A stretch of DNA of 54,988 nt, taken from the NCBI GenBank assembly GCA_902760645.1, contig CACWHC010000010.1:1-54988 (forward strand). Direction: 5' to 3'. The position numbers were made by a program, and so were the translations under genes. The notes beneath the pieces were generated by a model. That model was not told the origin of the DNA. It worked only from the letters and a program-made list of their open reading frames with translations, and ran no database searches. This DNA is from an uncultured bacterium (GTDB lineage: Bacteria; Cyanobacteriota; Vampirovibrionia; Gastranaerophilales; Gastranaerophilaceae). Positions 27,694 through 31,507 of the stretch are shown here, piece by piece. The stretch's first letter is position 1; each line of letters starts with the position of its first letter.

Positions 27694-27790
27694 ATAAAAA
27701 TAAACCGGTGGTCATAGGTATCTTGGAGGATTACCGTTGATATGACTTTCACCGACCACCGGATTGCCCTTAGGCAATTAATATGATTAA
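27694..27790 (-). ncRNA. Predicted small RNA 2, CCUCC in apical loop
   Basis: A stand-alone minus-strand RNA of about 95 nt. Its promoter at 27796-27823 is among the best in the window. The RNA would fold as ATTGCC-TAAG-GGCAAT (27778-27763), then a long hairpin closed by CCGGTGGTC/GACCACCGG (27762-27754 with 27713-27705), continued by GTCATA/TATGAC and GGTA/TACC, with the 11-nt loop ATCCTCCAAGA. The closing stem is followed by TTTATTTTT, so the hairpin can act as terminator. The exposed CCTCC is complementary to Shine-Dalgarno sequences. I looked for 4.5S RNA (GGAAGCAGC), 6S, tmRNA and common riboswitch cores and saw none. Strand choice rests on promoter and T-tract. Confidence 0.6.
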
Positions 27791-27862: not shown

Positions 27863-27937
27863 AAAAAAAAAAGCCGTTACAATTAAGAACGGCTACCAGA
27901 CTTGGGGAGGAGGTATGAAAAACTTACGTTTTTCATA
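27863..27937 (-). ncRNA. Predicted small RNA 1, Yfr1-like architecture
   Basis: Minus-strand RNA of about 75 nt. A perfect 10-bp hairpin TATGAAAAAC-GTAA-GTTTTTCATA (27937-27914) has a GNRA tetraloop only on this strand. A 19-nt unpaired linker CCTCCTCCCCAAGTCTGGT (27913-27895) follows. The terminator AGCCGTT-N9-AACGGCT (27894-27872) then runs into nine T. Cyanobacterial Yfr1 has the same plan: two hairpins flanking a conserved unpaired CU-rich motif (ACUCCUCACAC) that pairs with ribosome binding sites. Here the motif is CCUCCUCCCC, so homology is not proven. A -10-like TAATAC lies just upstream but the -35 is weak; processing from the 28146 TPR mRNA is an alternative. Confidence 0.6.
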
Positions 27938-28145
27938 TCTGTATTATTAGTTACGAATAAAAGAAATAAATCTTTAGCAAATTGCACAATATATACATTA
28001 AATGATGTAGATAAACTAAAATACAATAAATTACAAATATATGAATCAAAAATAAAATATACGGAACACTCAAATATGCAATTTTTAACATAAAATTGCA
28101 TACGTAAAAATTCAAATTGAAATGATAAAAAATATAAACAGAAAA
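27938..28145. other. AT-rich intergenic stretch
   Basis: Between small RNA 1 and the TPR gene this very AT-rich stretch shows no convincing gene. It holds a possible weak hairpin (ATGCAATTTTTAACATAAAATTGCAT, complementary ends at about 28077-28084 and 28095-28102) that could end the TPR transcript. The short open frame on the plus strand runs through small RNA 1 and has no protein-like composition. Confidence 0.4.
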
Positions 28146-30619: not shown

Positions 30620-31507
30620 ATGATGACTATAAACGATAAACATATAGAATATAATATGGAAAGAGAACTTGGGTGGATAATGAGTCAGAGTTTTGATTTT
30701 ACATCATACAACAACATAAAAAGACTGCCGGAAGATGAACTGGCGTCTTTATGGAATAAATATCTCGCTGACAAGACCAACAAACAGCTTAGAGATACCT
30801 TAATTGTACAGTATATATACCTTGTACGCTATGTTGTCGGCAGAGTAAGAGTAACATTACCCGCTACTGTTTCTATTGAAGATATTGCAGGCTACGGAAT
30901 TGAAGGTTTGATTAATGCCATTGAAAGATATTCCGTTCAGAAAAATACAAGATTTGAAACTTATGCACTTATAAGAATCAGAGGGGCAATACTTGATAAA
31001 ATAAGAGAAGAAGACTTTTTACCAAGAAGTATAAGGAAAAAGATTAAAGATATTAAGGCAGCCCAGGAAAAATTAAAGCAAGAATTCGGGAGAACTCCTA
31101 CAACAGCAGAAGTTGCACAAGAACTTGATATGGAGCCGGATAAAGTTAATCAGATACTTGCGGAAGACACAACAATGACATCCCTTTATGAAAAAAAGGG
31201 TACAAGTGATGACAGTGTTGAAATTATAGATACTATACAGGATACAAATAAACTTAATCCTCAGGAACAAGTTGAAGAAAATAATGTTAAACAGGAATTG
31301 GAGAGGGCATTGAAAAAATTACCGGAAAGAGAACGTGTAATAATGGTTCTTTATTATCAGGAAAATATGACTTTAAAAGAAATCGGTACAACAATTAACG
31401 TATCAGAATCCAGAGTATGCCAACTGCATGCTCAGGCAATTATGAAGCTTAAAAATATATTGTCAGAAACAAGAACCTCAAGATTACATCAAAGCATTGT
31501 TGCCTGA
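30620..31507 (+). CDS. FliA/WhiG-type sigma factor
   Basis: An alternative RNA polymerase sigma factor of group 3. Region 2 is YLVRYVVGRVRV...IEDIAGYGIEGLINAIERY...RFETYALIRIRGAILDKIREEDFLPRS (FliA-like, shown as blocks), region 3 has FGRTPTTAEVAQELDM, and region 4 ends with MTLKEIGTTINVSESRVCQLHAQAIMKL, the helix-turn-helix for the -35. Length fits after a leader of ~35 residues. The start is uncertain: ATG 30620, 30656 or 30680 are possible, and homology only begins near residue 37. No flagellar or anti-sigma gene is nearby, so the regulon cannot be named. Confidence 0.88.
   Translation: MMTINDKHIEYNMERELGWIMSQSFDFTSYNNIKRLPEDELASLWNKYLADKTNKQLRDTLIVQYIYLVRYVVGRVRVTLPATVSIEDIAGYGIEGLINAIERYSVQKNTRFETYALIRIRGAILDKIREEDFLPRSIRKKIKDIKAAQEKLKQEFGRTPTTAEVAQELDMEPDKVNQILAEDTTMTSLYEKKGTSDDSVEIIDTIQDTNKLNPQEQVEENNVKQELERALKKLPERERVIMVLYYQENMTLKEIGTTINVSESRVCQLHAQAIMKLKNILSETRTSRLHQSIVA

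Follow-up and report, generated by a model that had tools for sequence, protein, structure and literature searches.

Several described sRNAs resemble the one considered here. Cyanobacterial Yfr1 carries the undecamer ACUCCUCACAC in an unpaired segment of 16–20 nt between two hairpins, is 54–69 nt long and is usually found by guaB or trxA (PMC2190773). It has been reported as stably abundant and, together with Yfr10, a paralog with the same motif, acts on hundreds of mRNAs (PMC6778093). In Campylobacter, the sigma28-dependent paralogous sRNAs CjNC1 and CjNC4 are predicted to pair at the ribosome binding sites of flagellar mRNAs (PMC4626219), and in Escherichia coli the sigma28-dependent sRNAs UhpU, MotR, FliX and FlgO adjust flagellar output (PMC10578931). 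The alpha-r14 sRNA NfeR1, with its CCUCCUCCC motif, pairs at ntrBC and closes a feedback loop on its regulator (PMC10746234). By analogy, we would regard CjNC1/CjNC4, the E. coli sigma28 sRNAs and NfeR1 as the closest functional kin of the sRNA described below.

The locus lies in the window, i.e. the whole stretch of 54,988 nt analysed, from an uncultured member of the Gastranaerophilaceae (genome G000; Table 1). An earlier note had described a small RNA on the minus strand here, and folding of positions 27863–27937 (minimum free energy −21.4 kcal/mol, z = −3.5) reproduced both its 10-bp hairpin with a GUAA loop and its terminator with a U tract. The linker, which the note held to be devoid of internal pairing, is mostly unpaired in the ensemble (unpaired probability approx. 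0.5–0.98 over CCUCCUCCCCAAG), but forms weak alternatives of 2–3 bp and is less open at UGG. The fold occupies the 75 nt originally given for it; judged by the promoter position, the RNA itself likely begins some 7 nt upstream of this, near 27944. The core reads ACCUCCUCCCCAAGUCUGG or close variants thereof. GNRA loops are frequent, not invariant, in the window's own family, and the window's genome has a single copy of the sRNA stretch.

Table 1. Positions of the sRNA, its promoter, the fliA gene with its complementary site (window coordinates) and the paralogous sRNA
Feature	Position	Strand	Description
sRNA core stretch	27863–27937	minus	10-bp hairpin, C-rich linker and intrinsic terminator
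Predicted transcript	27863–27944	minus	approx. 80 nt (range 75–82 nt); 5′ end predicted by promoter spacing
sRNA promoter, sigma28/FliA type	27951–27976	minus	−35 TAAAG 27972–27976, 15-nt spacer, −10 TCGTAA 27951–27956
5′ hairpin	27914–27937	minus	10 bp, GUAA loop; from folding
Single-stranded linker CCUCCUCCCCAAGUCUGGU	27895–27913	minus	anti-Shine-Dalgarno-like core; near-invariant in 174 distinct copies
Proposed seed CCCAAGU, within linker	27900–27906	minus	complement ACTTGGG before fliA and fliM/N
Intrinsic terminator	27863–27894	minus	GCCGUU...AACGGC stem and U tract; kept in aligned members
ACTTGGG at fliA ribosome binding site	30667–30673	plus	complementary to sRNA seed
fliA/whiG-family sigma28 gene	30680–31507	plus	TIGR02479, 245.6 bits vs cut-off 189.6
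Paralog sRNA	G000:C2:26851–26931		locus L112 (stretch L112:1470–1585 = G000:C2:26820–26935); core UAUCCCCAAAUCUCCUCCCAAGAUUAUUGU

The BLASTN search against relatives that the note had called for matched a 91-nt stretch in 47 of 57 genomes, which puts the sRNA far beyond chance; up to four copies per genome were found in families that carry flagellin. A covariance model based on 58 members (its E-values are rough, and all genomes are assemblies) detected the sRNA in 296 of the 382 class genomes, in every sampled family of Gastranaerophilales and in nearly all sampled genomes of that order; within the window's own family, this model gave no match in G007, G223, G277, G318 and G364. In more distant members, which belong to other orders of the class, the sequence is CCCCAACCUCCUCCCCAAGUC, and some of them also have an upstream TAAAG...CGA element. 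Named matches belong to Candidatus Gastranaerophilales or to gut, rumen and other metagenome-assembled genomes with general or uncertain labels, and a search of IMG/VR for viral carriage did not find the exact core.

The linker columns CUCCUCCCC(A/G)AGUCU(G/A)G hardly vary among the 174 distinct copies, a conservation that is partly by construction because some loci were found via the exact core pattern; the loci obtained by BLASTN of relatives were not picked in this way. The same copies possess 132 different 27-nt 5′ segments, and in 91% of the copies the fold 5′ of the linker beats the 5% limit of its own shuffles (mean z −4.8). The 5′ hairpin is thus kept as a structure across families while its sequence changes, and the compensation in the stem with a kept linker that the note had proposed as a check is observed there. 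Within the window's own family both helices are paired in 99.9% of cells, mainly through A-U to G-U changes, with two compensatory changes in the first stem; the sequences are too similar there for strong covariation to be expected. In genomes G034 and G040 (L040–L043, L054) the standard copy is accompanied, sometimes in tandem, by further copies whose 5′ part is shortened and whose core differs, reading TCTCTTCCCCAAGTCTGG.

Two readings of the locus as something other than a free-standing RNA gene fare poorly against these alignments. In the window the sRNA is situated upstream of nusB on the same strand, as a cis-acting 5′ leader or attenuator of that gene would be. Neighbouring genes vary freely across 140 loci with no conserved synteny, nusB adjoins the sRNA only in the window's genome, the terminator is strong and relatives carry several copies per genome; we consider a leader virtually excluded by the lack of synteny, and the free change of neighbours points to a free-standing gene. 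A small-protein or dual-function gene is extremely improbable: in the window's genome an ATG-initiated frame (ATGAAAAACG..., i.e. MKNVSFSYLLPKSGSRS) does span both hairpin and linker, but it has no Shine-Dalgarno sequence before it, no such start exists in other families, and close relatives differ in loop length (4, 5, 6 or 7 nt), which disrupts the frame and was the ground for its rejection.

A few other elements were seen near these loci or in these genomes. Between the sRNA and nusB (window 27703–27765) there is an inverted repeat, CCGGTGGTC...GACCACCGG, present in no relative's locus examined. Repeated CTAGGGGGGGGGG (poly-G/poly-C) sites are scattered in the window's genome (e.g. G000:C1:71785, 80586 and 196777), several of them followed by a similar stretch, and in a relative L057:3170–3275 gave a sub-threshold match to the phenylalanine leader (45 bits vs cut-off 55, E 1.2e-4).

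The earlier note had read the RNA as a Yfr1-type regulator retained by a non-photosynthetic relative of cyanobacteria. Its general plan holds: two stem-loops, the second of them the terminator, surround an unpaired anti-Shine-Dalgarno-like segment in a conserved sRNA. As with Yfr1 and Yfr10, a second sRNA with the same motif exists (see below) and the phylum is the same; it differs in which motif is conserved, in the class of its promoter, in its neighbouring genes and in its lineage. Overall plan, phylum, similar length and the precedent of a paralog would favour a true Yfr1 ortholog whose core has changed; this reading is nevertheless largely refuted and in our estimation very improbable. 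The undecamer ACUCCUCACAC is absent from the aligned linkers. The Yfr1 covariance model (RF01116) matched none of eight representative loci at the gathering cut-off (38-bit) or even at E ≤ 10, as the note had wished to see searched, and was not found in G000; it matched 61 of 146 genomes of the phylum, all outside this class, so that Yfr1 was found in none of the listed genomes of the class. The new model, conversely, gave no match at Yfr1 loci, and Yfr1 membership was rejected on these three grounds (no Rfam match, none in the class, no reciprocal model match). In addition, guaB and trxA are missing from the neighbourhood of the sRNA loci, the window's neighbours being nusB and a gene for a TPR protein, and the sRNA has a sigma28-type promoter, whereas Yfr1 is reported to be stably abundant (PMC6778093). 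The length predicted here from sequence is approx. 75–82 nt; Yfr1 transcripts have 54–69 nt. Against photosynthetic cyanobacteria the new model returned about ten weak, scattered matches (E 8e-4 to 6e-6); these include G431, G486, G487, G490 and G542, several of them in one genus with genomes of 1.6–1.7 Mb. The sRNA appears to be like Yfr1 in outline, which falls short of showing it to be Yfr1.

Two facts, both absent from the earlier note, are the most telling about the locus: its promoter is of sigma28 type, and fliA lies nearby. Of 179 copies, 133 match the consensus TAAAG-N15/16-CCGATA upstream at ≥9/11 positions, a level reached by 2.6% of shuffled upstream regions, and TAAAG followed after 15–16 nt by CCGATA or close variants precedes the sRNA in every family looked at; the window's own version is TAAAG-N15-TCGTAA, with a −10 that reads only TCGTAA. 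FliA promoters of E. coli, e.g. TAAAGTTTCCCCCCTCCTTGCCGATAAC, have the same consensus and spacing (PMC4183435). The element is a sigma28 motif, presumably used by FliA. The sigma28 gene of the window lies approx. 2.7 kb from the sRNA; its frame opens at 30620, and comparison with relatives places the conserved start, MSQSFDF, at 30680, directly after ACTTGGGTGGATA. FliA, above the cut-off in the window, is encoded in 36 of 40 genomes of the class tested, a wider range than that of the sRNA, which makes the latter look like an addition to an older regulon.

RNA anatomy, sigma28-type promoters, the fliA gene and complementary sites are established at the level of sequence. We think it rather probable that the RNA is a trans-acting sRNA of the sigma28 (FliA) regulon that pairs with ribosome binding sites and lowers translation. 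FliA would transcribe it from the TAAAG-N15-CCGATA-type promoter; the 5′ hairpin and the terminator would hold the C-rich linker single-stranded; and the linker would base-pair with ribosome binding sites, with reduced translation as the presumed outcome. The most likely targets appear to be fliA itself and the fliM/N-fliOPQ export operon, where the seed CCCAAGU could pair with ACUUGGG by the start codon. Repression of fliA would then amount to negative feedback on sigma28, and that of fliM/N would limit synthesis of the export apparatus.

The proposal of fliA as a target arose from looking at the sequence and was then checked on leaders from other genomes. Among 491 ORFs in 560 kb (approx. 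29% of the window's genome), just two have ACTTGGG within 32 nt upstream of their start: fliA and fliM/N, with which the fliM/N-fliOPQ operon begins. The fliM/N site is largely kept in the congener G006. In 15 fliA leaders of the order, CTTGGG, complementary to CCCAAG of the core, is the most enriched hexamer and ACTTGG the second, statistics inflated by kinship, with four of the six hexamer-bearing leaders from one genus; its distance from the start varies from approx. −12 to −23. Together, this enrichment and the ACTTGGG sites suggest a feedback loop in which sigma28 activates the sRNA and the sRNA represses fliA. The sites pair over 6–7 nt plus a broken stretch (approx. −15 kcal/mol), and fliA ranks about 22nd of the 491 ORFs by duplex energy. 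Presence of sRNA and site do not coincide throughout: CTTGGG is found at fliA in G007 and G277 with no detected sRNA, the hexamer is missing from the fliA leader in G043, G044 and G034, which have the sRNA, and G223 and G318 have neither detected sRNA nor site. We take fliA as the best target lead that these comparisons offer, not as proof.

It is possible, if doubtful, that the RNA is a sigma28-dependent sRNA acting as a broad anti-Shine-Dalgarno regulator of many mRNAs, e.g. those of envelope proteins, with fliA no specific target. Its core CCUCCUCCCC resembles the anti-Shine-Dalgarno sequence of 16S rRNA, several strong Shine-Dalgarno sequences after CAGAC (e.g. in genes for an OmpH/Skp-like and another signal-peptide protein) give duplexes of approx. 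−18 kcal/mol, and Yfr1/Yfr10, with their hundreds of mRNAs, offer a precedent (PMC6778093). Against this, strong duplexes among the 491 ORFs show no clear overall excess, their numbers being barely above those for shuffled linkers, and the top enriched hexamer of the fliA leaders points to a specific site. The 'stronger' anti-Shine-Dalgarno core of the earlier note calls for caution: GGGGAGG-N3-10-ATG has a single match in G000, located on the strand opposite the sRNA gene, and targets must therefore pair only partly; across the genus, counts of GGGGAGG-N-ATG were about the same as for a reversed-pattern control. No extended perfect target with a sensible start was found in the window's own genome at ≤3 mismatches. 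This, and a whole linker, rather than a seed alone, that is near-invariant, would also fit an RNA that does not pair with mRNA but titrates a protein (e.g. a C-rich RNA-binding protein); we regard this as unlikely, as the hexamer enriched at fliA is complementary to the core and no candidate protein is known.

A paralogous sRNA, present as a single copy and found in 44 of 57 relatives, has a conserved upstream element, TTGTAAATTTTTATTA, in place of the sigma28 motif, which suggests another regulator. Both sRNAs share CCCCAAA(C/U)CUCCUCCC(C)AAG, so that, by their sequences, one pairing core is shared by two sRNAs under two different controls. The fliA leaders of G007 and G010 read AATCTTGGG, which fits the paralog better: predicted duplexes are −20.9 and −18.6 kcal/mol, respectively, vs −14.8 and −12.8 kcal/mol with the first sRNA. 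The latter was found in G007 neither by BLASTN nor with the covariance model, and G010 gave no BLASTN match; fliA of G007 may be served by the paralog instead.

Like CjNC1 and CjNC4, the sRNA is short and sigma28-dependent (here predicted by promoter motif), with a conserved single-stranded region, a terminator and a paralog. There is, however, no known sequence relation, the Campylobacter targets are sigma54-class genes rather than fliA, and Campylobacter is flagellated, whereas the RNA described here is kept also in genomes without flagellin. With alpha-r14/NfeR1 it has in common a conserved CCUCCUCCC anti-Shine-Dalgarno motif situated where the RNA is unpaired, and pairing (predicted here) at the translation start of a regulator, by which a feedback loop is closed; alpha-r14 sRNAs differ in having three hairpins, each with CCUCCUCCC, vs a single linker between two hairpins here, and belong to nitrogen control in alphaproteobacteria. 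The E. coli sRNAs UhpU, MotR, FliX and FlgO, conserved in some Enterobacteriaceae, are UTR-derived and Hfq-bound rather than free-standing genes with an anti-Shine-Dalgarno linker.

No flagellin was found in 13 genomes of the window's genus, and nearly all genomes of other families of the order possess it; an incomplete set of flagellar genes has been noted before in most Gastranaerophilales (PMC4040986). The window's genome retains FliI (T3SS-type ATPase), FliM/N, FliO, FliP and FliQ (L293, L294 and L295; G000:C4 and C2). With flagellin missing and flagellar-type export genes kept, the loop seems to outlive the flagellum. Several sigma28-type promoters of this genome precede, by approx. 23–43 nt, ORFs that encode uncharacterised proteins, calpain-like ones included; two long calpain-like (PF00648) ORFs situated close together have one such promoter each. 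We suggest, very tentatively, that the circuit in which sigma28 drives an sRNA that represses fliA came from flagellated ancestors and was kept and reused in gut Gastranaerophilales to control a filament-less, flagellum-derived type III export system, which may secrete calpain-like and EF-hand-like proteins with the same promoters, the second sRNA with the same core linking the circuit to another signal.

The sRNA had no match in Rfam 15, and no described family was found in the literature searched. It represents an undescribed RNA family carried by almost all genomes sampled from a common gut order. Its architecture resembles that of Yfr1, with another core and another sigma factor, and it offers a way into post-transcriptional control for a lineage that has no genetics. 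It also raises the question of why FliA and its promoters, flagellar-type export genes and the sRNA are retained where flagellin is missing.
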